From assembly GCA_009780485.1 (NCBI GenBank), contig WQZZ01000010.1, forward strand, positions 1 to 34,476: a stretch of 34,476 bases of DNA. Reading direction: 5' to 3'. The stretch comes from Defluviitaleaceae bacterium (GTDB lineage Bacteria; Bacillota; Clostridia; Lachnospirales; WRAX01). The notes under the pieces were generated by a model. That model had not been told where the DNA came from, did no database searches, and saw only the letters and a list, made by a program, of their open reading frames with translations. Shown here in pieces: positions 8,120 through 31,745 of the stretch (positions are counted from its first letter, which is position 1; every line of letters starts with the position of its first letter). The position numbers and the translations under genes are program-made.

Positions 8120-8410
8120 TCATATTTGAGAGGGCGTGTCAAAGGGTTTTTTTCTACGGCTCATACATTCTTGGTCGATGTCATAAATCCCATTAGAATG
8201 AACAGAATTACCACCAATTGAACGCAAGGTTTCTAATAAATGCAAAAAGTCCATTGTATCCTCCAAAGTCTTGTGATTGGCTTGTGGGACAAATGGCTTT
8301 AAGGCATGAAGAAGCTGGGCTTCTTTACTAGGATTTCTACGAGCGTGCTTGCTTTTTTGTTCCAAGTTTTTCATCATTTGGGTGGCTTCTAAAATTCTGC
8401 TTTCAAGCAT
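8120..8410 (-). CDS. Small protein of unknown function, coupled to the split S8 protease gene
   Basis: This 96-residue, charged, probably helical protein (MLESRILEATQMMKNLEQKSKHARRNPSKEAQ...) has no signal peptide or membrane segment, and I do not recognise the family. Its ATG overlaps the stop of the S8 protease C-terminal piece (TAATG), so before the island arrived it was translationally coupled to the protease. It might be a partner, inhibitor or chaperone of that protease, but only the position suggests this. With the protease 5' end now 23.5 kb away, its expression must come from a promoter within the island or from read-through. Confidence 0.6.
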   Translation of the reverse strand: MLESRILEATQMMKNLEQKSKHARRNPSKEAQLLHALKPFVPQANHKTLEDTMDFLHLLETLRSIGGNSVHSNGIYDIDQECMSRRKKPFDTPSQI

Positions 8411-9168
8411 TATTTATTACCTCCATTCAAAAATTTTAACATATTGATAATCCCCCAACCTTGGCGGTTTGGAGGCATCCGCAAATCAACTGCACTATAT
8501 TTTATCATAAGCTTAACTTGGTCGGGTGTAAGATTCGGATATTTTGTAAGCAACAGCGACACGGCACCAGAAACAAAAGGAGCTGCCATTGATGTCCCTG
8601 TCATCCTCACATAATACCGCCCCACCAATTTCATCTTCATCAATCGTTGCAAGCTAAGTTCTGGGCTGTTAGACAAACAAGAAACAATATCGCATCCTGC
8701 CGCCAAAATGTTAGGTTTTATAACACATTCCGATGTGGGTCCTTGCCCCGAAAAATTTGCCGTGGCAATAGAATCGCAATGACTGTCCTCCACAGCCCCC
8801 ACGGTGATAATTTTGCGACTGCTACCAGGGGAGGTGACGGTGGAAGCCTCTGGTCCAGCATTGCCAGCGGCTGCAACCACCACAACACCTGCATCCCACA
8901 ACGCTTCCGACATACGTACCAATGGGTCGTTACTGCCCACATCTGCCGTGCCAATCGAAAGGTTTGCCACACGGATATTATACCTTTCGGCATTATCATA
9001 AACCCACTGCAACCCCGCCAAAGCGTTGCTAGAATTACCCCGACCACTGGAATCCAAAATCTTCACCGACAAAATATTTGCCTTAGGATTCACCCCCACA
9101 TAAACCCCGCCAGATGCAAACCCATCCCCCGCCGCAATACCTGCTACATGGGTGCGGTGCTGATAATC
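8410..9168 (-). pseudogene. Subtilisin-like (S8) protease, C-terminal piece, separated from its start by the island
   Basis: The frame is open from just after a TAA at 9169-9171 to the stop at 8410. It begins with island-derived residues DYQHR and continues with native THVAGIAAGDGFASGG. The oxyanion Asn block VVVAAAGNAGPE and the catalytic Ser block GTSMAAPFVSGA are intact, and helices follow to the C-terminus. The catalytic Asp region and the true His context are missing. They are found at 32604-32756 on the same strand ([14 protein letters not shown]...DDNGHGTHV). Joining the two at the shared ACC-CAT-GT codons gives a 291-residue intracellular-type S8 protease with Asp11, His43, Asn142 and Ser232. 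The track start (GTG 9099) is not a real initiation site. Confidence 0.9.
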
Positions 9169-9174
9169 TTAGCC
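9146..9174. repeat. attL: 8-bp core plus left attP arm
   Basis: ACATGGGT (9146-9153), then 7 bases, then TGATAATCTTAGCC (9161-9174). The chromosomal half-site lies to the left in the S8 codons for HVAGIAAG. The crossover is predicted at the TG at 9149-9150, from the symmetry centre of the reconstructed attP. Confidence 0.82.
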
Positions 9175-9297: not shown

Positions 9298-9379
9298 AAT
9301 TTCAGAGTTACTGAAGTTTCTGCACTTGATTGCAATGCAGCAACTGGTTGCTTAAAAATAAAACCAAGGAGTGCTTCAT

Positions 9380-9880
9380 ATGCGTCTTCCCTCAGGCTTC
9401 TTCAAACAATCTGCCATCAATCTCGCTCCCCTCTTAATCGGCAAAACACTTTGCCGTAAAATAGATGATGAGATTATTCGCTTTGCTATAACAGAAACAG
9501 AGGCATATGCAGGTGAAAGTGATACCGCTTGCCATGCACATAAGGGTAAAACCCCACGCACTTCTGTTATGTATGGGGAAAGTGGCATTGCCTATGTTTA
9601 CTTGTGTTATGGGATTCATCATCTGCTGAATGTTGTGGTAGCAGATATTGGTGAGCCTGAATGTGTGTTGATTCGTGGTGTAGAAGGTATATCTGGACCT
9701 GGGCGGTTGACAAAGGCTTTGCAGATTGATATGAGGTTTAATAGGATGAATTTAATAACATCGAATGAGCTTTGGTTGGAAGATGGCGTTCAACTTCCAT
9801 ATACTGCCACTCCCCGAATAGGGATTGGTTATGCTAGTGAGGAGGATAGGGCACAGTTGTGGAGGTTTGTTGCTGTTTAA
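9380..9880 (+). CDS. mpg: 3-methyladenine DNA glycosylase (AAG/MPG family)
   Basis: This 166-residue AAG-fold glycosylase excises alkylated or deaminated purines (3-methyladenine, hypoxanthine). Family blocks are visible: LAPLLIGKTLCRK, the catalytic-region ITETEAYAGESDTACHA (Glu general base), KTPRTSVMYGESGIAYVYLCYGIHHLLNVV with the intercalating Tyr loop, VLIRGVE and the SGPGRLTKAL block. The length is slightly shorter than the usual 190-200, trimmed at the C-terminus. The track start is a GTG that overlaps the ribosome site. I prefer the ATG at 9380, 8 bases after AAGGAG. It is the first gene inside the left end of the island and converges on the DUF421 gene with only 9 bases between them. 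Confidence 0.93.
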   Translation: MRLPSGFFKQSAINLAPLLIGKTLCRKIDDEIIRFAITETEAYAGESDTACHAHKGKTPRTSVMYGESGIAYVYLCYGIHHLLNVVVADIGEPECVLIRGVEGISGPGRLTKALQIDMRFNRMNLITSNELWLEDGVQLPYTATPRIGIGYASEEDRAQLWRFVAV

Positions 9881-9889
9881 TGTGTTTCG

Positions 9890-10561
9890 TTATGCACGCT
9901 TTTGTATATACAGGCTTCTATCCTGTTGTAATTCAGCATAAAAAATATGCTTAACATCTTTGACCCCTTGCTTTCTCAATTCGGCATTTAGTTGTTCACG
10001 GCTATATCCTAGCTCTGCCAGATTTTTTTCAACAATTTTTCCATCTGTAATGATTTCGGATGGCAAGCCAGCAGGTTCTGACAAAATTTGCATATCCTCT
10101 TTGGTCACGGGTTTTTTGCTTGATTTCTTCATTACAGTTAATGCACCATTTGGCTCTAAAATCGCATATTCTACATCCATTATGGAAAATACTTGGTTTA
10201 ACCTTAGTTGCATGGATAAGTCATCTAAATTTAGCCTTTGTTTTCTTAATGCTGACTCTAAAATAAGACCTTGTTTAATTACTATCGTGGGCTGTCCGTC
10301 CATCAAAACTCTAGCGACTGGACTTTTCAAACTCATCCATTCAATTATAAGAACCAACAGGCTCCACAAAGTCAAGGCAAGCAGACCATCTATAATACGT
10401 ACTTCCTTTTGCATCACCATCTCGCTCGCCATGCTACCTAGAGCGATTCCTGTGATATAGGTAAATACTGTAAGTTGGCTAAGTTGCTTTTTACCCAACA
10501 AACGGGTAAGAAGTAAAAGTATTACAAAGCCCAACAATGTGCGAATGGCTGTATCCAACAT
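9890..10561 (-). CDS. DUF421 (YetF-like) membrane protein
   Basis: This 223-residue protein has three N-terminal membrane segments (FVILLLLTRLLG, VFTYITGIALGSMASEM, LLALTLWSLLVLIIEWM). A cytosolic DUF421 domain with the typical GQPTIVIKQGLI block and a conserved RLNQVFSIMDVEYAILEPNGALTV stretch follows. YetF/YdfS-type proteins are widespread in Firmicutes, with some linked to spores, but their biochemical function is not established. The track ORF is 22 codons longer; I chose the ATG at 10561 because GGGAGGG lies directly upstream and the first helix then starts normally (MLDTAIRTLLGF). It is divergent from selO. Confidence 0.88.
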   Translation of the reverse strand: MLDTAIRTLLGFVILLLLTRLLGKKQLSQLTVFTYITGIALGSMASEMVMQKEVRIIDGLLALTLWSLLVLIIEWMSLKSPVARVLMDGQPTIVIKQGLILESALRKQRLNLDDLSMQLRLNQVFSIMDVEYAILEPNGALTVMKKSSKKPVTKEDMQILSEPAGLPSEIITDGKIVEKNLAELGYSREQLNAELRKQGVKDVKHIFYAELQQDRSLYIQKRA

Positions 10562-10651
10562 GATATTCCCTCCCTTTCCAGTTATTGTGCGGAATAAGCC
10601 ACGTTTTATACCAACAAAGATGGACACCCTAAGTCAGAGGTGATTTGTAAA

Positions 10652-12082
10652 ATGTCCATAAATGGCTGGAATTTTCAGAATACTTATTTGGGGCTACCCG
10701 AAATTTTTTATTCCAATCAAAAGCCTGCCCTAGCTCCTGACCCCAAAATGGTTATTTTTAATCAAGGACTAGCAAAAGACTTGGGTTTAGATGATGGGCT
10801 TTTGAAATCTTCCCCAGAATTATTTGCTGGAAACATCTTGCCAACCAATGCTCGTCCCGTTTCTCAGGCATATGCTGGGTATCAATTCGGTCGTTTTGCC
10901 ACGCTGGGGGATGGACGGGCTGTTTTATTGGGAGAGCAGATAACACCAAACGGACAGCGATTTGACATACAACTAAAGGGTTCGGGTCGCACGCCCTATT
11001 CTCGTGGAGGGGATGGGCTAGCATCACTCTCACCCATGCTTAGGGAATATATTATTAGCGAGGCAATGTATGCTTTGGGCATACCCACCACTCGCTCATT
11101 GGCGGTTGTCCTTACTGGCGGGGAAGTTGTTCGGGAAACCATATTTCCTGGGGCGGTATTAACTCGTGTTGCTTCCAGCCACATCCGCATCGGCACTTTT
11201 AATTATGCGGCAGCATACGGAAGTACAGATGATTTAACCGCACTTGCAGACTATACCATACGGCGACATTTCCCGTGGCTGGAAGGAGTTAAGGATAAGT
11301 ATCTGCTGTTTTTTCGTGAGGTCGCTCGCTTGCAAGCTGAATTAATAGCAAAATGGCAGTTGGTGGGATTTATCCATGGCGTTATGAACACGGACAATGA
11401 AGCAATTTCTGGCGAAACCATAGATTATGGACCATGTGCATTTATGGATACCTATGACCCAAATACTGTGTTTAGCTCAATAGACACAAGCGGGCGATAT
11501 TCCTATAAAAACCAGCCAGGTATAGGGGCATGGAACTTGGCGAGATTAGCAGAGTCCATCCTTCCCTTATTACACAAAAATCAAGAAGAAGCCATATTGA
11601 TGGCAGAAGATGAGATTAAGGTTTATTGGGATATTTTTAACGAAAACTGGTTGCAGGGCATGAGAACCAAGCTTGGAGTGACAAACAAAGAAGAAGATGA
11701 CACCTCTTTGGTCAAAGAATTACTTGATTTAATGGAGCATCATAAGTTGGATTATACTAATACATTTCGTGCGTTATCGTCCGTAAATCTGGAAAACCCC
11801 CCGTTGCCGGGGGACGGTCAGTGGCTGAAACAATGGATTGCAAGACTAGGCCGACAACCCATCAGCATAAATGAGGCTAGTGAAATGATAAAAGCCCACA
11901 ATCCTGCACTTATCCCAAGGAATTATTTTGTTGAGGAAGCTCTAACTGTAGCGAGCAAAGGAGATATGGGTGTTATGAAAGATTTGTTGAGGGCTTTAAG
12001 TGAACCTTTTGAAGAATCAGATAAATATACCTCTGTGCAGGAAGGGTGGAGTTGTGGGTATAAGACGTTTTGCGGGACGTAG
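10652..12082 (+). CDS. selO: Protein adenylyltransferase SelO (YdiU family)
   Basis: This 476-residue SelO-family pseudokinase transfers AMP from ATP, bound in a flipped orientation, to Ser/Thr/Tyr of target proteins, with a role in redox homeostasis. Visible blocks are YAGYQFGRFATLGDGRAVLLGEQ, LKGSGRTPYSRGGDGLA, the SEAMYALGIPTTRSLAVV helix, GFIHGVMNTDN (catalytic-loop equivalent) and IDYGPCAFMD (the DFG-equivalent metal site). The bacterial C-terminal end TFCGT is complete, with a normal Cys and no selenocysteine. GTG 10640 is the track start; I prefer ATG 10652 after AGAGGTGA. It shares a 90-base intergenic region with the divergent DUF421 gene. Confidence 0.95.
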   Translation: MSINGWNFQNTYLGLPEIFYSNQKPALAPDPKMVIFNQGLAKDLGLDDGLLKSSPELFAGNILPTNARPVSQAYAGYQFGRFATLGDGRAVLLGEQITPNGQRFDIQLKGSGRTPYSRGGDGLASLSPMLREYIISEAMYALGIPTTRSLAVVLTGGEVVRETIFPGAVLTRVASSHIRIGTFNYAAAYGSTDDLTALADYTIRRHFPWLEGVKDKYLLFFREVARLQAELIAKWQLVGFIHGVMNTDNEAISGETIDYGPCAFMDTYDPNTVFSSIDTSGRYSYKNQPGIGAWNLARLAESILPLLHKNQEEAILMAEDEIKVYWDIFNENWLQGMRTKLGVTNKEEDDTSLVKELLDLMEHHKLDYTNTFRALSSVNLENPPLPGDGQWLKQWIARLGRQPISINEASEMIKAHNPALIPRNYFVEEALTVASKGDMGVMKDLLRALSEPFEESDKYTSVQEGWSCGYKTFCGT

Positions 12083-12470
12083 CTTAGGTTATAGCTTTAT
12101 AAACTTAGTTAGTATCTGCAAGATAGTTGTAACAAAAAAATCGAGTGATGTGCTAATTTGACTAAAAACTGCCCACGGGGTAATCGGTGGCAGTTTTTTA
12201 TTGACGTTTCCATTATTTTTTATCAATTTTGCAAAAAAATCTAAAATCACCAAAATGGTTGTTAGCTGGCTTCTTGTGCTTATCTTTGTTTTTTCGTTTG
12301 GTTTTAATGTGGCGACTTATGACGGCATCACGCCAATAAACCCTGCCTTTCAAAAGTGTCATAAAAAACATTCGATTGATATTCAAGAAAGTAAGTTTTT
12401 TGTATGAGAAGCATATTGAAACAGCTTTACTAGGGGTTATTCAAAAGTAAACCACCACATGATTTGAATA
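12083..12470. other. Intergenic stretch with a terminator and one doubtful small ORF
   Basis: After selO there is a hairpin terminator (12164-12198). Past it, the plus-strand frame 12201-12407 contains ATG GTT GTT at 12255, coding a 50-residue peptide with one hydrophobic helix (MVVSWLLVLIFVFSFGFNV). It lacks a convincing ribosome site and I would not call it a gene without homologues. The rest up to the end of the serine hydrolase gene shows nothing recognisable. Confidence 0.4.
12164..12198 (+). terminator. Terminator downstream of selO
   Basis: AAAAACTGCC and GGCAGTTTTTT pair around a loop containing CACGGGGTAATCGGT, and a T-run follows. There is one imperfect position at the stem-loop border. 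Confidence 0.65.
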
Positions 12471-13526
12471 CTATTGTATAATTTTTGGGCTTTTAGAATC
12501 AGCCCCATTAGAATCGAAAACATATTTAATAATTTCACCAACTAGAGATTCGTTCTGGTCTTTACCTGGGTCTGAATTAGTCATTACGATTACGCCACTT
12601 TGCCCTTCATGGTAACAACGAAGTTTGCATTGCATACCCACACCCCAACCTTGTGAAACAAAGAAAGGTTTGCCTTCTTTGTCTTTATCGAGAAAAACAC
12701 CTAAACCCACATCATCTGTACAACCATATGGGGTCAGCATAAGCCGTGCCGTTTCTTGGTTCAACACCAAACCACCATTTCCGTGGTAGGATTTTAGAAG
12801 GTCTGTGATTATGATTGTAAGCTCCCTTGTTGTAGTCCACAGCCCTGCACCTTCGATGTTTGGATAAACAGCACGGACTTCCTTCACCGCATTTCCACGC
12901 TTATCATGCCCTACGGCACAATCAGCGAGCGAAATGCCGTCATATTCATTTTTGTTTGGCTCCCAAAAGAATGTACGAGTTAGCCCAAGGGGTTTGAAAA
13001 TCATCCAACTCGCAGCTTGCGGTATCGTTTCGCCCAAAGCATCAAGAAGAACTTGACTAATAATAGAGTAGCCTGCATCTGAATATTCGCAATCAGTTTC
13101 GGGTTCATATTTTATATTAACTGCTTTATTCAAAATATCAACAAGACTTGGAGCGTCATCACCAATTTTACATAGGCTAAAAATATCATCATAATCACGC
13201 AACCCTGCCTGATGAGCTAATAAATTTGCAAGTGTGATTTTTTTCGTTTTGGTAAACTCGCTATCGGGAAGTTTCCATGAAATGAGGTATTCGTTGACAT
13301 CTTTATGCAAATCTAACTCTCCATATTGAGCCAACCTTAATACGCATATAGCTGTAATCATCTTTGATATTGAGCAAGCATGGAAAATGGAATTATCATC
13401 AACCTCTTTACTCGTCCCTTTTTCAAGCGTCCCAAAATGCTTACTCCAATCAATTTTTCCATCAGCAAAGCAAGTTACGCTAACGCTTGGTATATTAAAA
13501 TAGTTCATTCTTTCTATTATGTTCAT
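12471..13526 (-). CDS. Beta-lactamase-fold serine hydrolase (class C / PBP4*-like)
   Basis: This 351-residue protein of the beta-lactamase/transpeptidase-like superfamily has the nucleophile motif SISK (Ser52, Lys55) in FHACSISKMITAICVLRL. The Tyr motif YSDAGYS near residue 148 replaces the usual YxN, and LANLLAHQAGLRDYDD is the typical Thr/Ser-gate region. A C-terminal VSQGWGVGMQC block takes the place of KTG/HTG. No signal peptide is visible, so it is likely cytoplasmic and more probably an esterase or peptidase-type hydrolase than a true beta-lactamase. The ATG at 13526 follows GGAGG and overlaps the stop of the AraC-type gene (ATGA), so the two are translationally coupled. The start 12 codons earlier in the track lies upstream of that ribosome site. 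Confidence 0.86.
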   Translation of the reverse strand: MNIIERMNYFNIPSVSVTCFADGKIDWSKHFGTLEKGTSKEVDDNSIFHACSISKMITAICVLRLAQYGELDLHKDVNEYLISWKLPDSEFTKTKKITLANLLAHQAGLRDYDDIFSLCKIGDDAPSLVDILNKAVNIKYEPETDCEYSDAGYSIISQVLLDALGETIPQAASWMIFKPLGLTRTFFWEPNKNEYDGISLADCAVGHDKRGNAVKEVRAVYPNIEGAGLWTTTRELTIIITDLLKSYHGNGGLVLNQETARLMLTPYGCTDDVGLGVFLDKDKEGKPFFVSQGWGVGMQCKLRCYHEGQSGVIVMTNSDPGKDQNESLVGEIIKYVFDSNGADSKSPKIIQ

Positions 13527-14431
13527 ATGCTCGTTTCCTCCAATTTTCTTACGGCAAACCAAAGCTCAAAATATCCAAACTCATTGTCACCGCCATAAAT
13601 TTCTAAATCCAAACCGCCGACCTGTTCATATTGCGATGCTGGTAGCCATTCACCAAAGAATCGTTTATACAAGGACTCAATAACTGTGTCAAAATTGTCC
13701 CATTCAAACTTTCCAGATGGGAACACAGCCCATGTGTGTGCTGGCACATCTAAAACTGTATAATCGTCAATTTGACTACCTCTGCCTTTGAAGGCACAAA
13801 TCATATAAGGGAACTCGCCTGTGCCAACCTCTTTGTAACTGCAAATAGCGTGTACATTATCTAAATTTTGACCGACAAACGAGGGTAGCTTGCCAGCGTC
13901 TTCATCTAGCTTAGTAATGGCACCGCTTGCATGGCAATCAGCCCACAAATCTGCGGGAGTTCGTGGGTGTTCTCCACTTTCATCAGTTCTAAAAATTCCT
14001 TCGATACCAAACACTTGAAAGGCATCTTTTTTCTCAATACGATAGTCCATTTGCTCCTTCCCTATAATCGAAACTTGGAATGAAATGCGAGGGTATGCTT
14101 TTAACAAAATACCACCCTTTTTTGCCTGTGTAGGTGTTGCACCATGCAAAGCATGAAACGCACGGGCGAAAGATACAGGCGATTCATAGCCATATTTCAT
14201 CGCCACCTCAATCACCTTAACATTACTACTTTGCAACTCTAACGCCGCCAAAGTCAACCGCCTTTTCCTCACATATTCGGAAAGCGATATATCTGCGACA
14301 TATGAAAACATTTTGAAAAATGTATGCACAGAACAACAAGCCAATTTTTCAAGCACACTGTAATCAATTTCGCCACAAAGATTATTCTCTATATAATCCA
14401 ATGTGGTGTTCATTCGTGTCAGCCAGTCCAC
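13523..14431 (-). CDS. AraC-family regulator with a GyrI-like effector-binding domain
   Basis: The 302-residue protein has an N-terminal two-HTH AraC domain (residues about 8-105: LDYIENNLCGEIDYSVLEKLACCS..., YVRKRRLTLAALELQ..., VIEVAMKYGYESPVSFARAFHALHGATP). A C-terminal GyrI-like/effector-binding domain follows (about 125-300, ending EIYGGDNEFGYFELWFAVRK). Such proteins (Rob/BmrR-type ligand domain) usually sense small molecules and activate neighbouring resistance genes. The GTG at 14431 is preceded by AAGGAG at 8 bases, so I prefer it over the TTG of the track. It overlaps the hydrolase gene downstream, its likely regulatory target. Confidence 0.9.
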   Translation of the reverse strand: MDWLTRMNTTLDYIENNLCGEIDYSVLEKLACCSVHTFFKMFSYVADISLSEYVRKRRLTLAALELQSSNVKVIEVAMKYGYESPVSFARAFHALHGATPTQAKKGGILLKAYPRISFQVSIIGKEQMDYRIEKKDAFQVFGIEGIFRTDESGEHPRTPADLWADCHASGAITKLDEDAGKLPSFVGQNLDNVHAICSYKEVGTGEFPYMICAFKGRGSQIDDYTVLDVPAHTWAVFPSGKFEWDNFDTVIESLYKRFFGEWLPASQYEQVGGLDLEIYGGDNEFGYFELWFAVRKLEETSI

Positions 14432-14741
14432 AGCACTCTCTCCTTCCAAAATCAATTATAGGGCAAGCCAAACAAAAAAGCACAACATTTCACGCCCAAT
14501 TTTGTTTGCAAGACCCTCTTGATAAATGATGCTATTCTAAATGTTGCGTAGTATATTTGACTATATGCCGAGATTTTTTAATCGCCCTAAAACTAGTATA
14601 TCAATAAGTCTTATAAGTTTCAAGATGTGATTGCCAATCACATTATTTGACCTTTACCACTAAGCTCCATCCTCATGGACAAGCATGAGCAAACCCCTAT
14701 TCACTGCATAGTATATACCAAAACTATAAGGACGGATATTT

Positions 14742-15463: not shown

Positions 15464-15497
15464 AACGAGAAACAAAAACTTTTTTGAGGTGATTTTG

Positions 15498-16676
15498 ATG
15501 AGAGAGGTTGTAATTGCATCAGCCATGCGCACAGCCATTGGAAGCTTTGGTGGTGTGTTTAAGGATGTGTCAGCCGTTGATTTGGGTGTGGTTGCCACGA
15601 AAGCGGCAATAGAGCGTGCTGGCATCAAACCAGAGCAGGTTTGCCAAGTGATTTTGGGTAATGTTTTGCAGGCAGGTCTTGGACAAAATGTGGCAAGGCA
15701 GGTGGCAATTGGTGCTGGTATTCCTGACACTGTCCCATCATTTGTGACGAATTTCGTTTGCGGAAGTGGTTTGAAAGCGGTAGAACTTGCCACCCAAGCA
15801 ATTCTTTGTGGTGACGCCGATATTGTGGTTTGCGGTGGCACAGAAAATATGTCCCAAGCCCCTTATTTGGCAAAAGGTGTCCGTTGGGGACAAAAAATGG
15901 GCAACTCTGAGCTTGAGGACACCCTGATTGCTGATGGTTTGACCGATGTTTTCAACAAATATCACATGGGAATAACTGCCGAAAATTTGGCTGATAAATA
16001 CGGCTTTTCACGTGAGGAACAAGATGAATTTTCAGCACAAAGCCAACAAAAGACAGAAAATGCCATAAAGACAGGTAAATTTAAGGCAGAAATTGCCCCT
16101 GTAAGTATTCCAGTGCGCAAGGGCGACCCTGTTGTGGTTGATGTTGATGAGTTTCCGAGGGCAGGCACAACTGCCGAGGGTCTTGGAAAGCTTCGCTCAG
16201 CCTTCAAAAAAGATGGCTCTGTAACGGCAGGGAATGCTTCGGGCATAAACGATGGGGCGGCTGTACTTGTGGTAATGAGCAAGGAAAAGGCAGAGGAACT
16301 AAATATAAAGCCTTTGGCAACCATTGTCAGTTATGCAAATGCTGGGGTATGTCCAACGATTATGGGTATTGGCCCAGTGCCTGCTACCCAAAAAGCCTTG
16401 ACAAAAGCAGGTTTGACAGTTGCCGACCTTGACTTGATTGAAGCCAACGAAGCATTTGCTGTACAAGCCCTTTCTGTGAGCAAAGAATTGAGTTTGCCTT
16501 CTGAAAAAGTTAATGTAAACGGCGGTGCAATCGCTCTTGGACATCCCATAGGGGCAAGTGGCGCTCGTGTACTTGTCACCCTAATTCACGAAATGATTGC
16601 ACAAGAGGCAAAACACGGTCTTGCGACCCTTTGCGTGGGTGGCGGACAAGGTATCGCAATGATTATAAAGCGTTAA
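15498..16676 (+). CDS. thlA: Acetyl-CoA C-acetyltransferase (biosynthetic-type thiolase)
   Basis: This 392-residue thiolase condenses two acetyl-CoA to acetoacetyl-CoA, or cleaves 3-ketoacyl-CoA in the reverse direction. The acyl-accepting Cys is Cys88 in [12 protein letters not shown]. The two C-terminal catalytic motifs, [12 protein letters not shown] (His near 348) and LCVGGGQG (Cys near 378), are intact, as is the [10 protein letters not shown] block. The length and N-terminus ([18 protein letters not shown]) match clostridial ThlA/PhaA. ATG 15498 follows GAGGTG; the track's GTG is inside the ribosome site. It opens the cargo operon; the reductase follows after 21 bases. Confidence 0.95.
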
Positions 16677-16697
16677 AACAAAATGGAGGATAAAATT

Positions 16698-17417
16698 ATG
16701 AGATTTCAAGGAAAAACAGCAATTGTTACAGGAGCAGCAGGGGGAATTGGACGTTGTGTGGCAGAAATACTGGCATCTGAAGGTGCAAATGTTTGTGCCG
16801 TTGATATGGTAGAACTTCCATATAGTGTGGATGGTGTCAAGGGCTACAAACTAAATGTAACCGACACAGTGGCATGTAAAGCTTTTTATGACGAGGTTGC
16901 CACCGAATACCCAACTTCAGACATTTTGGTTAACAACGCAGGAGTTACAAGAGATGCTATGACAGCCAAAATGACTGACGAGCAATGGGATTTGGTGATT
17001 GATGTTAATTTGAAAGGTTTGTTTAATTTAACTCGACACTTTGGACCGCATATGGAGCGTCAAAACAGCGGTTCAATTATAAATATTTCTTCTGTTGTTG
17101 GTGAATTTGGCAATATTGGTCAGGCTAATTATGCCGCAACAAAATCCGCCGTTTATGGCTTGACAAAAACATGGGCTAAAGAATTTGCCCGCAAAGGGGC
17201 TGCCGTCCGTGTAAATGCCGTGTCCCCAGGGTATACTATGACGGATATTCTTAAAACTGTGCCACAAGACTTGCTTGACAAATTTGCCGCCCAAACAATG
17301 CTTGGCAGACTTGGACAACCCGAAGAAATCGCTAAAGCAATCGTGTTTTTAGCAAGTGACGACGCATCATACATAACGGGTCACAATTTAAGCGTCAATG
17401 GAGGGATGAGATTATAA
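16698..17417 (+). CDS. SDR 3-ketoacyl-CoA/ACP reductase (PhaB/FabG type)
   Basis: This 239-residue short-chain dehydrogenase has the Rossmann motif TGAAGGIG (residues 11-18), NNAGVTRD, the catalytic Ser in INISSVVG and YAATKSA (YxxxK), then SPGYTMTD and the end NGGMRL. In this context the natural substrate is acetoacetyl-CoA, giving (R)-3-hydroxybutyryl-CoA as PhaB does; FabG activity on ACP substrates cannot be excluded by sequence. The track start includes GGAGG as codons, so the ATG at 16698, 7 bases after that site, is the real start. Its stop overlaps the ATG of the MaoC gene (TAATG). Confidence 0.9.
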   Translation: MRFQGKTAIVTGAAGGIGRCVAEILASEGANVCAVDMVELPYSVDGVKGYKLNVTDTVACKAFYDEVATEYPTSDILVNNAGVTRDAMTAKMTDEQWDLVIDVNLKGLFNLTRHFGPHMERQNSGSIINISSVVGEFGNIGQANYAATKSAVYGLTKTWAKEFARKGAAVRVNAVSPGYTMTDILKTVPQDLLDKFAAQTMLGRLGQPEEIAKAIVFLASDDASYITGHNLSVNGGMRL

Positions 17418-17833
17418 TGAATGGACTTACAATGAGCCAAATCAGCGTGGGGCAATCCGCCAGCTTTACAAAAACAATCACCGAAACAGATGTATATATG
17501 TTTGCGGGCGTGACGGGAGACTTAAACCCTGCTCACTTAAACGAAGAATATGCCAAAAATACCATGTTTAAGGGACGCATCGCCCATGGGATGCTTGGGG
17601 CAGGTTTGATTTCTGCTGTCCTTGGTATGTATTTACCAGGTCCTGGAACTATTTATATGAAGCAAGACCTGAAATTCCTTGCTCCTGTACGCTTTAACGA
17701 CACAATCACAGCCACCTGTACCGTCAAGGAAAAAATCGAGGACAAAGGGCGTCTTGTCATGGAATGTATCGTGACAAATCAGGATGGCACACAGGTAATC
17801 GTCGGGGAAGCCCTTGTGATGCCGCCAAAATGA
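17417..17833 (+). CDS. MaoC-like (R)-specific enoyl-CoA hydratase (PhaJ type)
   Basis: This 138-residue single hot-dog-fold protein has the hydratase-2 signature AGVTGDLNPAHLNEEYA, with catalytic Asp35 and His40, followed by FKGRIAHGMLGAGLIS. The enzyme interconverts (R)-3-hydroxyacyl-CoA and trans-2-enoyl-CoA. It pairs stereochemically with the (R)-forming reductase just upstream, and its start overlaps that gene's stop. Together they replace the (S)-specific Hbd/Crt pair common in clostridial butyrate operons. Its stop overlaps the TetR start (ATGA). Confidence 0.92.
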   Translation: MNGLTMSQISVGQSASFTKTITETDVYMFAGVTGDLNPAHLNEEYAKNTMFKGRIAHGMLGAGLISAVLGMYLPGPGTIYMKQDLKFLAPVRFNDTITATCTVKEKIEDKGRLVMECIVTNQDGTQVIVGEALVMPPK

Positions 17834-18456
17834 TAAAAGCTGAGGATTTACTAAAATCTCCGCCAAAAACAAAGCTTCGAGAGGTGACCCTTGAGAAGCT
17901 TTGTTTGGCAGCGGAGCAAATTTTTATGAAAAAAAATTATTATAATACAAGCATATACGACATCGTGACCGAAGCCGATGTGTCCATCGGCACTTTTTAC
18001 AATTATTTCCCTGATAAAATCAGTATGTATAAATATGTTGTGCTGAAACATGGGCAAGATATTAGGAAGTTTATCGCCAAAGGGTTGTCCAAAACAGGCA
18101 TAACCGACCGAAAGAAAATGGAAAGGGAAGGCATAAAGCTTTATTTGGACTATTGCCTTAAAAATCCCCGTGTCATCAACATTATTTGGCAATCCCACTT
18201 TGTCGCACCTGAGCTTTTTATCGCATATTACGACAATTTTGGAAAACAGTATGAAAAGCAGTTAGCGTCTGCTGTCGCTGTCGGCGAAGTTTACCCTGCT
18301 GACCTTGAGGTTGTCAGCTATATGTTGATGGGTATGTCGAATTTTCTTGCAATCAAATATGTGGAATTTGGCGACCACAACAACTTGACTGACGAACGTC
18401 TTTATGAAATTGTTGACCAAGTGATGGAAATTTTGCAAAGGGGGATGTTTGTTTAA
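17830..18456 (+). CDS. TetR-family regulator, probable repressor of the acyl-CoA cluster
   Basis: This 208-residue protein has an N-terminal TetR DNA-binding domain (LCLAAEQIFMKKNYYNTSIYDIVTEADVSIGTFYNYFPDKISMY, residues about 24-68) and a helical ligand domain. The true start is ATG 17830, overlapping the MaoC stop; the track adds 22 out-of-place codons. TetR regulators inside acyl-CoA clusters (FadR-like in Bacillus, PaaR, PsrA) typically sense acyl-CoA. A likely operator is the imperfect palindrome overlapping the -35 of the next promoter, directly downstream. Confidence 0.9.
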   Translation: MIKAEDLLKSPPKTKLREVTLEKLCLAAEQIFMKKNYYNTSIYDIVTEADVSIGTFYNYFPDKISMYKYVVLKHGQDIRKFIAKGLSKTGITDRKKMEREGIKLYLDYCLKNPRVINIIWQSHFVAPELFIAYYDNFGKQYEKQLASAVAVGEVYPADLEVVSYMLMGMSNFLAIKYVEFGDHNNLTDERLYEIVDQVMEILQRGMFV

Positions 18457-18469
18457 TAATTAAGTCCTA

Positions 18470-18491
18470 CAAGTTCTGAAAAAAGTTCTTG
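18470..18491. promoter_or_regulatory. Candidate TetR operator
   Basis: CAAGTTCT and AGTTCTTG flank six A/G-rich bases. The palindrome is imperfect (CAAG..CT......AG..CTTG) and also reads as two AAGTTCT direct repeats. It overlaps the -35 of the following promoter by three bases, the usual place for a repressor site. Confidence 0.35.
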
Positions 18492-18517
18492 ACGCTTCTT
18501 GGGAATTAATATATAAT
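18489..18517 (+). promoter_or_regulatory. Strong promoter of the KAS III/liv/etf segment
   Basis: TTGACG, 17 bases, TATAAT, about 55 bases before the KAS III-like start. The match is close to the sigma-A consensus, so the ketosynthase-to-etfA genes can be expressed separately from the thiolase-TetR set. Confidence 0.8.
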
Positions 18518-18571
18518 AATTGTAATCAAAAAAATGAATGACCCTTCACATTTTGAAAAGAGGTGTTAGCT

Positions 18572-19597
18572 TTGGAGAGACACGTTGGAATTGCGGGGAT
18601 TGGCACATATATTCCCCAAAGTTTTATGACAGCGGGAGAGATTTCCGATGCCACAGGTGGCGTGTGGAGCGAGGATGCTGTCATAAACAAGCTTGGAATT
18701 GTGAAAAAACCCGTCACCGATGAAGTTGGGACGCAGGAAATGGGATATTTGGCGGCGAAGGCTTGCTTGGAAAATGCAGGGATAAGTCCTTTAGAAATTG
18801 ACGTGATTTTGTGCATGGGCGAGGAATACAAGGAATTTCCTTTGACAACCTCGGCTTTGTATATCCAAGACAAACTTGGTGCTGTAAACGCTTGGGGTAT
18901 TGACGTGCAAAACCGTTGTTGCACTGCCGTTTCTGCCATAAAAATGGCGAAAGATATGTTGATGGCGGATGACGAGATTGACACAATTCTCATTGCGGGC
19001 GGTTATCGCAACGGCGACTTCATTGATTATACTGACAGCAATGTGTCGTTTATGTTTAACTTGGCGGCAGGGGGCGGAGCAATCCTTCTTCGCAAAAATC
19101 TTGGTAAAAATTTAGTGCTTGGCAGTCATATCATTGCAGATGCAAGCTTAAACCGTACTGCTGGGGTTGAAATTGGCGGGCAAGTAAATCCAATAAACGC
19201 TGAAAATTTTGAAGAAGCACGTCGCTCTCTACGTTTGATGGATGCCGAAACCATGAAAAACCGTTTGAACGCAGTGAGCATGGATAATTGGCATACTTGC
19301 ATCAACCGTGCTTTTGAAAAGTCTGGTTTACCCTGCTCTGCCATGGACTATTTAGCGATTTTGCATATCAAGCCAAGCGGGCATCGTGGGATGCTTGCAG
19401 ATTTAGGCTTGACGGATGACCAGTCTATATATCTTGAAGATTTTGGACATATAGGACAGGTTGACCAAATTTTGTCCTTGGAGCTGGCTTTGAAGCAAGG
19501 CAAGGTTGGGGAAGGTTCGGTTGTATGTATGTTGTCCGCTGGAATCGGCTATGTTTGGGCGGCTTCTGTTATTAAGTGGGGGGAATTTAAGGTATGA
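18572..19597 (+). CDS. KAS III / thiolase-fold condensing-enzyme-like protein with altered active site
   Basis: This 341-residue thiolase-superfamily protein is of FabH/HMG-CoA-synthase type. It begins HVGIAGIGTYIPQ, carries its nucleophilic Cys in DVQNRCCTAVSAIK, its His in LHIKPSGHRG, and ends with a C-terminal motif GHIGQVDQ. FabH has GNTSAAS in the last position, with an Asn needed for malonyl decarboxylation; here that residue is His. Decarboxylative condensation with malonyl-ACP is therefore doubtful, and an acyl-transfer or non-decarboxylating reaction is as likely. TTG 18572 after GAGGTG is my preferred start; GTG 18563 lies within the ribosome site. Its stop overlaps the livH start. 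It may act on the imported substrate of the Liv system; that is inference. Confidence 0.75.
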   Translation: MERHVGIAGIGTYIPQSFMTAGEISDATGGVWSEDAVINKLGIVKKPVTDEVGTQEMGYLAAKACLENAGISPLEIDVILCMGEEYKEFPLTTSALYIQDKLGAVNAWGIDVQNRCCTAVSAIKMAKDMLMADDEIDTILIAGGYRNGDFIDYTDSNVSFMFNLAAGGGAILLRKNLGKNLVLGSHIIADASLNRTAGVEIGGQVNPINAENFEEARRSLRLMDAETMKNRLNAVSMDNWHTCINRAFEKSGLPCSAMDYLAILHIKPSGHRGMLADLGLTDDQSIYLEDFGHIGQVDQILSLELALKQGKVGEGSVVCMLSAGIGYVWAASVIKWGEFKV

Positions 19598-20466
19598 GTA
19601 TTTTTGTACAAATCCTTTTCAACAGCTTGGAAGCGGGCGGGATTTATGCACTTGCTACCCTTGGCGTAATCCTGATATTTCGCACATCCTCTGCCTTTAA
19701 CTATGCCCAAGGGGTTATCTCCATGTTTTGTGCCTTTATCGCAGCAAATTTTCTCCACTCTACAGGTATGAATGTTTGGGTCGCTACCATCTTTGGTCTG
19801 TTTTCGGCATTGCTTGTGGGAATTTTCATAGATAGGGTGGTAATTTCTCGTACGATAAACTTACATTCTGTGTCAAAACAAATTATAACCCTTGGTCTTG
19901 TTATTGTATTTTTGGGGCTTGCCCCTATGTTTTTCGGGGTTGACCCTATGACATATCCACGTTTTGCCCATGGTGCTGTCACTGTTGCCGGGGCAAACAT
20001 TACCCATGGTGCGATTATCAACATTTCTATTGGTATCATGGTTGTTGCGATTTTGTTTTTTGTCATACAAAAGACAAAATGGGGGCTGGCTGTCCGTGCC
20101 ACGGCTTCCAACGGTTTGGTTGCCCGTTTGATGGGCATACCCACCCCTGTTGTAACCATGGGGGCGTGGGCGATTGCGGCGGCTCTTGGTACACTAGCGG
20201 CGGTTATGCGTGCACCTGACACCATGGTTAACCTTGTAATGATGGACAGCATCCAAATCACGGCTTTGCTTGCTTGTGTTTTGGGGGGTCTTGGCACTTT
20301 CCATGGACCTGTGATTGCGGCATACCTTATCAGCCTTGGACGTGCCTTGGTAGCCTTCTACATAAGTCCAACTTGGAGCGAGGCAATCATTTACATCCTA
20401 ATTCTTCTGGTGCTTATGTTTGCACCCAATGGCATTTTCGGCAAAAAAGTGCTGAAGAAAGTTTAG
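19594..20466 (+). CDS. livH: Liv-type ABC transporter permease LivH
   Basis: This 290-residue integral membrane permease belongs to the branched-chain amino acid (HAAT) ABC family, with about eight helices. The typical N-terminus is FNSLEAGGIYALATLGVILIFRTSSAFNYAQGVISM, and an RATASNGLVARLMGIP EAA-like loop contacts the ATPase. The start overlaps the KAS III-like stop (ATGA). LivM, LivG, LivF and LivK follow in order, giving a complete importer. The HAAT family also imports amides, urea and aromatic or short carboxylic acids, so the placement among acyl-CoA genes leaves the substrate open. Confidence 0.93.
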   Translation: MSIFVQILFNSLEAGGIYALATLGVILIFRTSSAFNYAQGVISMFCAFIAANFLHSTGMNVWVATIFGLFSALLVGIFIDRVVISRTINLHSVSKQIITLGLVIVFLGLAPMFFGVDPMTYPRFAHGAVTVAGANITHGAIINISIGIMVVAILFFVIQKTKWGLAVRATASNGLVARLMGIPTPVVTMGAWAIAAALGTLAAVMRAPDTMVNLVMMDSIQITALLACVLGGLGTFHGPVIAAYLISLGRALVAFYISPTWSEAIIYILILLVLMFAPNGIFGKKVLKKV

Positions 20467-20478
20467 GAGGGTATGGAT

Positions 20479-21522
20479 ATGAATAAAGTTTTTGGAACAA
20501 TCAAAAAAACACAGCCATATCTTGGTTTTCTGATTTTGGGAGGGATTTTGTCCCTTGCCCCTGCACTTGTGGCAAATACCCAATGGTTTTTATTCGCATG
20601 GCTTACCATTTTTGCGGGCTTTGTGGTGTATTCCATTGCCAGCCTTGGGATGAACATTTTGATGGGCTATGGTGGCTTGGCAAGCCTTGGAACTGCTGGC
20701 TTTATGGGTCTGGGTGCGTACCTTACCATGGTTTTGACTGTGGATTTGGGGTTAAGCTTCTTCCCCGTTCTCATCCTTACGATTTTGGCGACGACAGTGC
20801 TTGGGATTTTGGTTGGACTAATATCTTTGCGTGTGGAAGGGTTTTTCCTTGCCATCGCCACACTGGTAATCGCTGAAATGCTTCGCCAAGTGTTTCAACA
20901 GATGCCTTTGCTTGGCGGACACGCAGGGCGTACAATGCCAGCATTTCCAACCATTTCGATTTTTGGCATCGCTGAATGGACATTAAACCGAAACCAGACA
21001 TATATAATGCTTGTAATTTTCCTAGTAATTGCCATGTTTGTGACGCAACTTTTGTTCAAGTCAGCAACAGGGCGGGCATTATCTGCCATGCGAGGAAGTG
21101 AGTCAGCTGCCGCTGCCATGGGTATAAGCATTTTCCGTGGTAGATTGTTGGCATTTGCCCTTGCTTCTGGTTTTGCGGGGGCGGCTGGGTCATTGTTCAT
21201 GTTTTTCATGCCTTTCACCAACCCGAACCACTGGAACTTAGTGCTTTCTCTCTTTATCTTTGCGGTTGTGGTTATTGGTGGTGTACGTTCGGTTGCTGGC
21301 ACTGTACTTGGTGCGTTTATCGTGTTTGCCGTACCCCAGTTGTTTATCGCCCGCCTACCAATTATTGGTGACATAAGTGGCATGGACTTCGTGTTCACAG
21401 GTGTTTTGATTATCGTGGTTGTGCTTTTCTACCCCGCTGGTCTTGTATATATGCCTATAAGTATTAAAAACGGCATCACAAAGCTGATTAACAAACGTAA
21501 GAAAGGAGGCGAAACGGCATGA
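20479..21522 (+). CDS. livM: Liv-type ABC transporter permease LivM
   Basis: This 347-residue second permease subunit has about nine to ten hydrophobic helices, with the signature MNILMGYGGLASLGTAGFMGLGAYLT and the loop SATGRALSAMRGSESAAAAMGISIFRGRLLAF. GGAGGG sits one base before the track's ATG 20473, so the ATG two codons later (20479) has the proper spacing. It pairs with LivH to form the pore. The last codons overlap livG (ATGA). Confidence 0.92.
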   Translation: MNKVFGTIKKTQPYLGFLILGGILSLAPALVANTQWFLFAWLTIFAGFVVYSIASLGMNILMGYGGLASLGTAGFMGLGAYLTMVLTVDLGLSFFPVLILTILATTVLGILVGLISLRVEGFFLAIATLVIAEMLRQVFQQMPLLGGHAGRTMPAFPTISIFGIAEWTLNRNQTYIMLVIFLVIAMFVTQLLFKSATGRALSAMRGSESAAAAMGISIFRGRLLAFALASGFAGAAGSLFMFFMPFTNPNHWNLVLSLFIFAVVVIGGVRSVAGTVLGAFIVFAVPQLFIARLPIIGDISGMDFVFTGVLIIVVVLFYPAGLVYMPISIKNGITKLINKRKKGGETA

Positions 21523-22322
21523 GCATCCTTTTAAGCGTAGAAAATTTGTCCATTGCCTTCGGTGGGCTGAAAGCCGTGGATGATTTGACTTTCGAGATGA
21601 ACCATGGTGAAATTTATGGCATCATAGGTCCAAACGGAGCGGGTAAAACCACCGCATTTAACTGCATTACGCAATTTTACAAGCCAAACGCAGGCAAAAT
21701 TCTATTTGACAGCAAAAAGAATGGCGTGATGGACTTGGTTGGCTTGAAGCCACATCAAGTAATTGGACATGGGCTTGTCCGCACATTCCAAAATGTGGAG
21801 TTAATTTCGTCCTTGTCGGTGATTGACAATTTGCTTGTTGGGGCGCATATCGCTTTCAAGTCCACATTGCCAGAGCAAATTTTCCGCCTGCCACGTGCAA
21901 GGCGTGAAGAAAAGCAATTGCGTGAAAGAGCTATGGAAGTCCTCGAAATGCTTGACCTAACCCATATCGCCCATATGCCAGCAACCATGCAACCTTACGG
22001 ATACCAAAAAAAGCTAGAGCTTGGTCGCACCCTTATGATGTCACCAAAACTTATTATACTTGATGAACCAGCGGCAGGGCTTAATGAAGTGGAAACCGAG
22101 GGGCTTATCAACATTGTGCAGAGCGTAGCAAAAGACCTAAATTGTGGCATTTTGCTGATTGAGCATGATATGAATTTTGTTTCAAAACTTTGCAATCGTA
22201 TTTGTGCTATAAGCTTTGGTAAAAGGCTTGCAATTGGCACACCTGACGAGATTAAGGCACATCCTGATGTGCGGGAAGCATACCTTGGCAAAAGTGATGA
22301 AGGGGGTGATGTTGATGGCTAA
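21519..22322 (+). CDS. livG: Liv-type ABC transporter ATPase LivG
   Basis: This 267-residue ATPase has Walker A GPNGAGKTT at residues 37-45, the HQVIGHGLVRTFQNVELI Q-loop region typical of LivG, and Walker B LIILDEPAAGLNEVE with a downstream LLIEHDMNFV switch. The signature is degenerate (MQPYGYQKKLELGR instead of LSGGQ), as often seen in LivG. The insert between Q-loop and signature (AHIAFKSTLPEQIFRLPRARREEKQ) is characteristic of LivG rather than LivF. It energises import together with LivF. Confidence 0.94.
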   Translation: MSILLSVENLSIAFGGLKAVDDLTFEMNHGEIYGIIGPNGAGKTTAFNCITQFYKPNAGKILFDSKKNGVMDLVGLKPHQVIGHGLVRTFQNVELISSLSVIDNLLVGAHIAFKSTLPEQIFRLPRARREEKQLRERAMEVLEMLDLTHIAHMPATMQPYGYQKKLELGRTLMMSPKLIILDEPAAGLNEVETEGLINIVQSVAKDLNCGILLIEHDMNFVSKLCNRICAISFGKRLAIGTPDEIKAHPDVREAYLGKSDEGGDVDG

Positions 22323-23034
22323 TATCGCACTGGACATCAAAGGCTTGACGGTGCAGTACGGCTATATCACCGCCGTCAAGGGGGTGGATATGCAAATCCC
22401 GCAGGGGGGGCTTGTTGCCCTTCTCGGCTCTAATGGTGCTGGCAAATCCAGCATTTTGAAGGCGATTTCTGGGGCTGTCCCTGCAAAAGGCGAAATGACC
22501 TTTTTCGGAGATAACATCAGCGGAATGATTTCCAACAAAATCACTAAACGAGGACTTTTCTCCGTGCCTGAGGGTAGGCAAATTTTTAATGACCTTACCG
22601 TGGAAGAAAACTTACGGACAGGAATGTTTACCCTTAAAGACAAAAAACAACAAGCCAGTAATTTCGAGCGTGTATACAGCTATTTCCCATTTTTGGCAGA
22701 GCGTAAGAAGCAAGTCGCCCAAACCCTGTCGGGCGGGGAACAACAAATGCTTGCCATGGGCAGAGCATTGATGGGAAGTCCAAAAATGCTTATTTTGGAC
22801 GAACCGTCCCTAGGGCTTGCCCCTCTAATTGTCCAGCAAATTTTTGACATTGTGCAACAAATTAGGGATGACGGCACAACAGTGCTGATTGTGGAGCAAA
22901 ACGCCCTCGGGGCATTGAAAATCGCTGATTATGCCTATGTTTTAGAGCTTGGCAATATCATAATGCAGGGCGAGGCAAAGGAACTTATAAAAGACCCGAC
23001 CCTCATCGAGGCGTATTTGGGCAAATCTGAATAA
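22315..23034 (+). CDS. livF: Liv-type ABC transporter ATPase LivF
   Basis: This 239-residue ATPase has Walker A GSNGAGKSS, FSVPEGRQIFNDLTVEENLR (a LivF hallmark), signature LSGGEQQMLAMGRALM, and Walker B LILDEPSLGLAPLIV. The track extends it by 33 spurious codons. The ATG at 22315 lies 6 bases after AAGGGGGTG and overlaps the end of livG by 8 bases, so translation is coupled. Confidence 0.94.
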   Translation: MANIALDIKGLTVQYGYITAVKGVDMQIPQGGLVALLGSNGAGKSSILKAISGAVPAKGEMTFFGDNISGMISNKITKRGLFSVPEGRQIFNDLTVEENLRTGMFTLKDKKQQASNFERVYSYFPFLAERKKQVAQTLSGGEQQMLAMGRALMGSPKMLILDEPSLGLAPLIVQQIFDIVQQIRDDGTTVLIVEQNALGALKIADYAYVLELGNIIMQGEAKELIKDPTLIEAYLGKSE

Positions 23035-23082
23035 TTTAGCAATTACCGTCAAAGGGCGGTTAAAAATAAGGAGGAAACGAAA

Positions 23083-24381
23083 ATGAAGAAAAAATTATTT
23101 ACCCTTGCAGCTTTGGCTGCTATGACAATCGGTGTGATGTCATTTACAGCTTGCGGTGGCAATGACGATGATGCGGGCGGGCAACCCCAAGGTGTTACAG
23201 GCACTGCTGGTACACATTCTCAAGGTGTTACAGACACCACGATTTACATCGGTAACACAGCCGCCACTTCTGGTGCTTTTGCTGCTGTTGGTGTGCCTTT
23301 TAACCATGGTCTGCAATCCTATCTTGACATTGTAAACGCCGCTGGTGGTGTCCACGGTAGGCAAATCCAACTTGTTCACCATGATGATGGCTTTGACGCA
23401 GTAAACGGTCTTGCCTTCACCGAACAACTTATCCATGATGACCGTATTTTTGCCCTTGTTGGTCATTTCGGAACACCGACCATCGGTGCAACCTTGCCAA
23501 TGCTAAAAGAAACTGGTATTCCAGCAGTTTATTTTGCAGCAGGTATTTCTCAGCTTTATATGCCGTATGCGACCACCGTTGCGGAAGGTCAGCGTCTTTT
23601 CCCTGTGCAACCACTGTTCCGTCCAGAAGGTCATATCTTGGCAGCACGTGTAATTGACGAATATGCTCCAAGCACCATCGGCGTAATTTTCTCCAATGAT
23701 GAAGCGGGTCAAGACCTTATTAGCGGTATCCGCTCTCAAGTGGCGGAAATTGGTGGCGTAAACCTTGTTGAAGCCCAAATCACTCCTGCTGACGCTGGCT
23801 CAATCTCTCCTGCTGTTTTGACTATGTATGCTCAAAATGTGGATGTTATCATAGTTGCTACTTTGCAAGGTGACTTTCCAGCGGTTGTAAACTCTATCGT
23901 TGGTCAAGGGCTTAACGTACCTGTGTTTACTTCATACGTAAGTGCTGCCCCAATCATCATCCAAGGTTTTGCAGCGGACTATCTTGGTGCAAATGCCACT
24001 TTCCCTGTTTATGTAACCAGCTGGCTTAGCATCTTTGACGATGAAGGCGAACTTGTTGACGATTACTGGGCATTTGCTGAGGGCGTTGGCGAAGACATGG
24101 CTTTGAACACCTTTGCAATGGCTGGCTGGGTTGCTGCAAGCACCTTCGTCCAAGGTTTGCGTGCCATGGGTAATGTGGATTATGTTACTTGGGAAGGTCT
24201 GACAAGTGCTTTGGAAGCGAACACTGTAAGCCTGCCAATGGGCGGTATCATGGACTTTTCAAATGGTGTAAGAACTGGTACAACTGCCATGGCATTGCTT
24301 CGTGCTGATGTGGATGGTGGCGAATGGTCGCCTTTGCGTGGTATGGAGCAACTTGAAGATATTGTAAACCGTATCAACTAA
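23083..24381 (+). CDS. livK: Liv-type substrate-binding lipoprotein LivK
   Basis: The 432-residue precursor has a lipoprotein signal peptide (MKKKLFTLAALAAMTIGVMSFTACGG, lipobox FTAC, so Cys24 would be lipidated). A Gly/Asp/Gln-rich linker follows, then a type I periplasmic-binding fold (TTIYIGNTAATSGAFAAVG...GGVHGRQIQLVHHDDGFD). It is anchored outside the membrane and delivers ligand to LivHM. The strong SD AAGGAGG suggests high expression. The usual ligand-binding Ser/Thr pair of LivK (SGPLA...) is replaced by TSGAFA, so the ligand may not be a branched-chain amino acid. Confidence 0.93.
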   Translation: MKKKLFTLAALAAMTIGVMSFTACGGNDDDAGGQPQGVTGTAGTHSQGVTDTTIYIGNTAATSGAFAAVGVPFNHGLQSYLDIVNAAGGVHGRQIQLVHHDDGFDAVNGLAFTEQLIHDDRIFALVGHFGTPTIGATLPMLKETGIPAVYFAAGISQLYMPYATTVAEGQRLFPVQPLFRPEGHILAARVIDEYAPSTIGVIFSNDEAGQDLISGIRSQVAEIGGVNLVEAQITPADAGSISPAVLTMYAQNVDVIIVATLQGDFPAVVNSIVGQGLNVPVFTSYVSAAPIIIQGFAADYLGANATFPVYVTSWLSIFDDEGELVDDYWAFAEGVGEDMALNTFAMAGWVAASTFVQGLRAMGNVDYVTWEGLTSALEANTVSLPMGGIMDFSNGVRTGTTAMALLRADVDGGEWSPLRGMEQLEDIVNRIN

Positions 24382-24397
24382 TACAGGAGGCATGTCT

Positions 24398-25696: not shown

Positions 25697-25710
25697 GGGG
25701 GTAAAAAATT

Positions 25711-26526
25711 ATGGCTTTTTTTGAAATAAACGGCAAAAATATTTATTATGAAGTCCATGGGGAAGGGACGCCCGTTGTACTGCTAAACGGCATTATGATG
25801 TCCACCCCTAGCTGGCAGATGTTTGTCCCAGCCTTGTCGTCAAATAATAAGCTAATTTTAGTGGATTTTTTTGACCAAGGGCAATCCCATAAGATGGTTG
25901 ACGAGGAATATGACCAGATGTTGCAAGTAAGCGTGGTCAAGAGCTTGCTTGAGCATTTAGGGCTTCCAAAAGCCAATATTGCAGGTGTTTCCTATGGTGG
26001 AAATGTCGCCCTTCGCTTTGCCATTGAGCATCCCCAAATGGTGGATAAACTTGCAATTTTCCACGCCGCCCCAAAAACAGGTGCATGGCTTCGTGACGTG
26101 GGCAAAAGCTGGATTTTAAGTATGGATTGCCCCGAAAATTTTTACAACACGTCAATCCCTGTGATTTATTCGCCAGAGTTTTATAATGGCAACCCAGATT
26201 GGGTGGAGGTGCGTAAAAACTTCTTGACCACCCATGTTTTCACAAACCAAGATTTCATGCAGGCTATGGCACGCCTTAGTCACTCGTCATACAGCTATGA
26301 TGTCAGCGACAAGCTGGACAAAATAACAGCAAAAACCCTAATTGTAGCGGCAGATAGCGACCCGCTAACCCCATATGCAGACCAAAAAGCCCTTAAAGAC
26401 GGCATCAAAGATGCCGAACTTGTCCTTCTACCAAATTGTGGTCACGCTTCAATGTATGAAAAACCAACCCTTTTTGCCAGCCTAATTACTGGCTTTGTAA
26501 ACACAGATTTTACGGGACTTCAATAA
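25711..26526 (+). CDS. Alpha/beta hydrolase
   Basis: This 271-residue cytosolic alpha/beta hydrolase has the nucleophile elbow GVSYGG (Ser94), an acid residue at about Asp217 (ADSDPLTP) and His245 (NCGHASMYEKP). The oxyanion region is LLNGIMMSTPSWQ. The small cap looks like that of lactonases, enol-lactonases or thioesterase-type hydrolases. Position between the CoA-transferase and the acyl-CoA dehydrogenase suggests a substrate entry step (ester, lactone or acyl-CoA hydrolysis). I cannot name the substrate. Start ATG 25711 follows GGGGG. Confidence 0.88.
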   Translation: MAFFEINGKNIYYEVHGEGTPVVLLNGIMMSTPSWQMFVPALSSNNKLILVDFFDQGQSHKMVDEEYDQMLQVSVVKSLLEHLGLPKANIAGVSYGGNVALRFAIEHPQMVDKLAIFHAAPKTGAWLRDVGKSWILSMDCPENFYNTSIPVIYSPEFYNGNPDWVEVRKNFLTTHVFTNQDFMQAMARLSHSSYSYDVSDKLDKITAKTLIVAADSDPLTPYADQKALKDGIKDAELVLLPNCGHASMYEKPTLFASLITGFVNTDFTGLQ

Positions 26527-26544
26527 TATTTGAGGAGGAAAAAT

Positions 26545-27666: not shown

Positions 27667-27676
27667 GAGGTATTGA

Positions 27677-28468: not shown

Positions 28469-28480
28469 GGAGGTGAAATT

Positions 28481-31646: not shown

Positions 31647-31745
31647 TTGGGTGGTTCCCTCCCTCATAAATGAAAAGAAGTAGATGCCTACTGACTAAAG
31701 ATATTATATCGCAGCACACAACCTCGGCATAGCTTCATGTACGTT

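Follow-up and report, generated by a model that had tools for sequence, protein, structure and literature searches.

Gene-intervening elements in sporulation genes have been described in sigK, spsM, spoVFB, gerE, and yabG. Excision has been proven for gin, which interrupts gerE in Bacillus cereus ATCC10987 (PMC5595907), and both excision and a directionality factor (RDF) have been shown for skin, the element in sigK of B. subtilis and C. difficile (PMC5025042). Here, we analyzed a stretch of 34,476 nucleotides (the window), in which a 23.5-kb element lies inside an S8 subtilase gene, exactly at the catalytic-histidine codon; as with gene-intervening elements, the DNA that breaks up the host gene encodes a site-specific recombinase, and the two parts of the gene are in frame. 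The element resembles gin in being apparently non-phage, in its serine recombinase, symmetric attP-type site, and short shared core, and in the host gene lying in pieces with the flanking halves in frame (PMC5595907). However, gin targets gerE rather than an S8 subtilase, it has three recombinases versus the one full-length recombinase found in the window element, and its excision is proven, whereas that of the window element is predicted. As in skin, a large serine recombinase lies within the interrupted gene of a spore-forming Firmicute, and reconstitution of the gene would require precise excision in both cases (PMC5025042); the interrupted genes differ, skin has prophage-like content, and excision is predicted for the window element. 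Serine-recombinase elements also interrupt late-sporulation genes in the case of SPbeta in spsM (PMC4191935) and yin in yabG (PMC10747680), the latter gene likewise encoding a protease, but these are prophages or prophage-like, while the window element has no recognised phage genes. We consider it probable that the locus holds a non-phage gene-intervening element that carries its own large serine recombinase, sits in the S8 catalytic-histidine codon, and would be excised late in sporulation.

Attachment sites and crossover

The initial annotation had reconstructed from the two ends and their spacers a 50-bp attP with 13/14 matching arms and TG at its center, and we recovered all of these letter for letter. 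Joined in a circle, the end parts (Table 1) give GGCTAAGATTATGA-AGCTTCC-ACATGGGT-GCGGTGC-TGATAATCTTAGCC, which is 14 + 7 + 8 + 7 + 14 = 50 bp; the arms are inverted repeats, and the TG occupies attP positions 25 and 26. The core ACATGGGT by itself was not significant, with 4 copies versus 1.53 expected in the window. The arm motif had a single 1-mismatch match within the window, namely, the right copy, and arms matching at 13 or more of 14 positions at any offset arose in 5e-6 of trials with random pairs of island stretches. The symmetry of attP was best when centered on the TG (15 to 16 of 24 pairs) and fell to 3 to 8 pairs when the center was shifted by 1 to 6 bp, a shift of 1 bp leaving 6 to 8 pairs.

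Table 1. Positions of the features of the interrupted S8 gene and its element in the window
Feature	Positions	Strand	Description
Small ORF directly 3' of the S8 gene	8120..8410	-	Also follows S8 in G002; without family match
S8 subtilase, C-terminal part	8410..9150	-	In frame to the crossover; PF00082, joined translation, purifying selection
Left junction	9146..9174	+	Core ACATGGGT (9146-9153), 7 bp GCGGTGC, element arm TGATAATCTTAGCC (9161-9174); one attP half; TG at 9149-9150
Cargo, first part	9371..14455	.	Methylpurine-DNA glycosylase, YetF-like, SelO, beta-lactamase-fold protein, AraC/GyrI-like regulator (Pfam)
Cargo, second part	15489..29470	+	Thiolase, SDR, MaoC, TetR, KAS III-like, branched-chain-type transporter, CoA transferase, acyl-CoA dehydrogenase, etfBA (some names from reading translations only)
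Large serine recombinase	30021..31667	-	548 aa; PF00239 Resolvase, PF07508 Recombinase, PF13408 Zn-ribbon in one protein
Small ORF, candidate directionality factor	31746..31952	-	68 aa, starting with TTG; immediately 5' of the recombinase; also conserved in G002 and G012
Right junction	32596..32624	+	Element arm GGCTAAGATTATGA (32596-32609), 7-bp spacer AGCTTCC, core ACATGGGT (32617-32624); other attP half
S8 subtilase, N-terminal part	32617..32756	-	Start codon at 32756; runs to the catalytic-histidine codon

When the flanks were joined at the core, they gave an uninterrupted S8 subtilase of 291 amino acids, and the attB thus restored encodes the catalytic-histidine motif GHGTHVAG. The reading frame is restored exactly. 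The proposed reading of the 50-bp site as the attP of a large serine integrase was supported: a recombinase with all three expected domains lies inside the element, attP is symmetric and about 50 bp long, the two junctions share a dinucleotide, and attB reappears on joining. The attP of the A118/LI serine integrase is of similar length with symmetric half-sites, and its zinc-ribbon motif occupies positions 16 to 24 from the central dinucleotide, a range that falls within positions 12 to 25 covered by the window arms (PMC3783163). In contrast to that system, the 5-bp inward shift of the zinc-ribbon motif in attB was not clearly visible by eye in the window (about 4 of 9 bases per half). The joined attB was not notably symmetric (8 of 25 positions). 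A search of the window's own genome for excised forms did not find the attB pattern, and the attP half pattern matched only the known left junction and, with 3 mismatches, one place on another contig. Insertion by a tyrosine recombinase or a transposon was rejected, as we recognised no gene for either and the flanks fit together exactly, the core being the only duplicated target sequence. The 68-aa ORF upstream of the recombinase had no Pfam or NCBIfam match that would identify it as a known directionality factor; it is a candidate for such a factor. Similar short ORFs precede the recombinases of G095, G059, G320, and G211.

The same split in related genomes

A search of 76 relatives (G numbers) turned up S8 genes interrupted at the same residue, next to related recombinases, both in the window's own family, where four genomes have the split, and in a second family, presumably Anaerotignaceae (Anaerotignum and related names). 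By our count, S8 was split in 36 of the 58 Anaerotignaceae genomes, intact in 14, unclear in 3, and absent from 5, and no intact extra copy was seen alongside a split one in the 58. Single-contig assemblies (G119, G231, G255, and G304) were among the split genomes, and in a named strain, [Clostridium] fimetarium DSM 9179, an element of about 11 kb interrupts S8 in the same way; a scan of named genomes with a single recombinase as the query found nothing, while the recombinase alignment as the query gave matches. Among the papers searched, none dealt with an interrupted subtilase gene or with recombinases of Anaerotignum.

Both junctions were available in 29 genomes (24 with the two on one contig), and in all 29 the gene was split at the same codon. 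CA at the center (TG on the other strand) was common to every junction pair, although the junctions had been refined with a CA-containing pattern; in the two genomes that this pattern missed, CA was nevertheless present at the position reached by extrapolation. In three genomes, G182 and G290 (same contig) and G320 (different contigs), CA/TG was all that the two junctions had in common, and in the remaining genomes the shared block reached left, right, or both ways from CA; because sequence can change after integration, single junctions weigh less than the overall pattern. The crossover dinucleotide had originally been chosen by symmetry alone, and the mismatches between the relatives' junctions leave just CA/TG in common, at which we place the crossover of the window element on the strength of these comparisons. 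The element halves were more symmetric than the chromosomal halves (attP, 13.0/24; attB, 8.1/24; Wilcoxon p 1.7e-5; 27 genomes, not fully independent). G002 and G012 carry the arm motif (GATAATCTTA type) with the same spacing to the core as the window; in G004 the motif has diverged. A second att-like arm copy, perhaps from an earlier insertion, was seen near the N-side junction in G004 (L050, about 1160 to 1260). Related elements can thus map a serine-recombinase crossover to two bases without experiment, and the comparison supplies new pairs of recombinases and att sites.

In 29 of the 36 split Anaerotignaceae genomes, we found a recombinase relative of about 300 to 340 aa that ends before the zinc ribbon, compared with none of the 14 Anaerotignaceae with intact S8 at E 1e-100. 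It was the only recombinase found between the S8 halves in several genomes, and in G182 and G078 it was on a different contig from the element. These proteins may represent a minimal recombinase class.

Promoter sequences and a possible link to sporulation

Among Anaerotignaceae, 26 of 29 split S8 genes have a CATAnnnT[A/G] box upstream (1.1 expected), as do 13 of 13 intact copies (0.8 expected); these counts are not independent draws because the genes are related. In the split genes it lies 28 to 43 bp before the start codon (65 bp in one genome), and many S8 genes have AC 16 to 17 nt further upstream. The box resembles what we take to be the -10 consensus of sigma-K. In the window, G002, and G012, TATAT[G/T]ATG stands in its place; the window box, TATATGATG, is a weak sigma-K match. 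The string CATANNNTA had no match in the literature.

No sigma-E, -F, or -G pattern was found upstream of S8 or the recombinase. Upstream of the truncated recombinases, CATA boxes were not clearly enriched, whereas the looser [CT]ATAnnnT was (18 of 24 versus 6.7 expected). No sporulation sigma-factor promoter signal was seen upstream of the recombinases. SpoIVA is present in the window genome and in most relatives. In three relatives, sigK matched in two separate pieces that meet near profile positions 104 to 134 (G002, C14:37476-37763 and 53278-53640; G013, C163; G068, C12), as expected for skin-like elements in sigK.

The locus had initially been read as an island inserted by a serine recombinase. 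Insertion by such an enzyme stood up to the comparison; "island insertion" is probably not the whole story, since dozens of relatives show the same split and the gene looks linked to sporulation.

Cargo and architecture of the window element

No phage structural or packaging genes were found among the Pfam-scanned cargo proteins or recognised among the ORFs of the window. The stretch with the transporter, CoA-transferase, and etf genes (20185 to 29460) is syntenic with a G001 contig at 76 to 80%, where jag-like and yidC-like ORFs follow it (names from reading translations); part of the cargo is judged to be an ordinary host operon. The same catabolic operon is also syntenic with a G004 contig at 67 to 72%. 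The recombinases of G002, G012, and G004 run antisense to S8 and have their 3' ends beside the N-half; the window has this block in the inverted orientation, some 950 bp from the N-half, with no convincing repeats to explain the inversion. As both the cargo and the recombinase orientation differ from those of the relatives, the window copy may be rearranged, and either internal rearrangement or the uptake of host DNA is likely.

Descent, selection, and alternative explanations

The split label can be mapped onto the S8 tree with 6 changes, compared with 16.6 in shuffles. The window, G002, G012, and G004 form one split clade (100/98) that spans several genera, with the intact G015 as its sister. 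S8 and truncated-recombinase distances were correlated in 24 Anaerotignaceae (r 0.85). The identities between the window and G002 (MutS, 68%; recombinase, 76%; S8 C-half, 72%) are compatible with vertical descent; in G012, the recombinase (71%) is above MutS (54%), which leaves room for transfer. Among congeneric split genomes, dN/dS (Nei-Gojobori) was mostly 0.03 to 0.24 for the C-half, N-half, and recombinase, with several synonymous distances saturated; two N-half pairs of low divergence gave 0.4 to 0.6 over only 55 codons. Judged from these comparisons, the split in the window can be regarded not as a one-off insertion but as one that has persisted for long while purifying selection acted on both halves.

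These data bear on the possibility that the element is an ordinary mobile island, inserted site specifically, that knocked out a dispensable protease gene and is excised rarely and without regulation. Its metabolic cargo, which differs wholly from the 10.4 kb in G002, would fit such an island, as would the weak promoter match in the window. Very similar split and intact S8 genes (G059/G087 and G227/G140) indicate that insertion or precise loss still happens, and these pairs, together with recombinase pieces in G015, whose S8 is intact, point to recent insertion in places. However, both halves are open and under purifying selection in genera whose sampled members are split, and the split clade of the window's family covers several genera; a mere knock-out should not show such dN/dS values, provided that the tree gives the right impression of the split's age. 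We therefore consider an ordinary island unlikely. Separate expression of the halves and their assembly into a working protease without excision is very improbable: both are open reading frames, but the N-half has only about 50 to 100 aa with the catalytic Asp, and in G182, G219, G012, and G304 it ends, when unjoined, in Gln in place of the catalytic His, the His codon being restored by the joined attB in G182 and G219. An assembly artefact or a chance inverted repeat is very improbable, even though the window comes from a fragmented draft genome of 169 contigs, because the same split occurs in many genomes, including the single-contig assemblies and [Clostridium] fimetarium DSM 9179, and the arms are far above chance.

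We thus favor a gene-intervening element. Weighing against this reading are the absence of excised forms from the window's own genome, the lack of an intact extra S8 copy beside split ones, the weak promoter match in the window, the missing sporulation promoter signal upstream of the recombinases, and the deviating cargo and recombinase orientation of the window copy. By its sequence, the element behaves like a serine-integrase element and, as far as its sequence and those of its relatives allow, most likely also as a sporulation gene-intervening element; the split at the same place in dozens of spore-forming relatives suggests that it is cut out late in sporulation, rebuilding the gene. The large serine recombinase would integrate the element into the catalytic-histidine codon of the host S8 gene, making the present ends attL and attR, whose element halves form the 50-bp attP, with the crossover placed at CA/TG. 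By analogy with the excision reported for skin, SPbeta, and gin (PMC5025042, PMC4191935, PMC5595907), the recombinase, probably with the small candidate directionality factor, would act in the mother cell at a late stage of sporulation to excise the element, after which the S8 promoter would drive expression of the intact protease, while the spore chromosome would retain the element. A more tentative extension, possible though somewhat doubtful, is that S8 is a standing gene in pieces in the window's family and in Anaerotignaceae, rebuilt only in the mother cell, with a domesticated truncated recombinase as the switch in Anaerotignaceae and a full-length version in the window, where the element would be rearranged and contain host operons. 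If the gene-intervening reading is true, S8 would be a new target gene for such elements, split at an active-site codon, and its split would be kept across genera of cultured and uncultured bacteria.

Related recombinases were also seen beside other genes. In L139, L143, and L145 (Anaerocolumna, Herbinix), recombinases with 45% identity end beside another, larger S8 gene, at its HGTH-type motif. In L141, L150, L156, L162, L166, L168, and L193 (Clostridium, Caloramator, Thermobrachium, Alkaliphilus, Oscillospiraceae, and others), they directly adjoin a P-loop ATPase-like gene that may be a further interrupted host gene.
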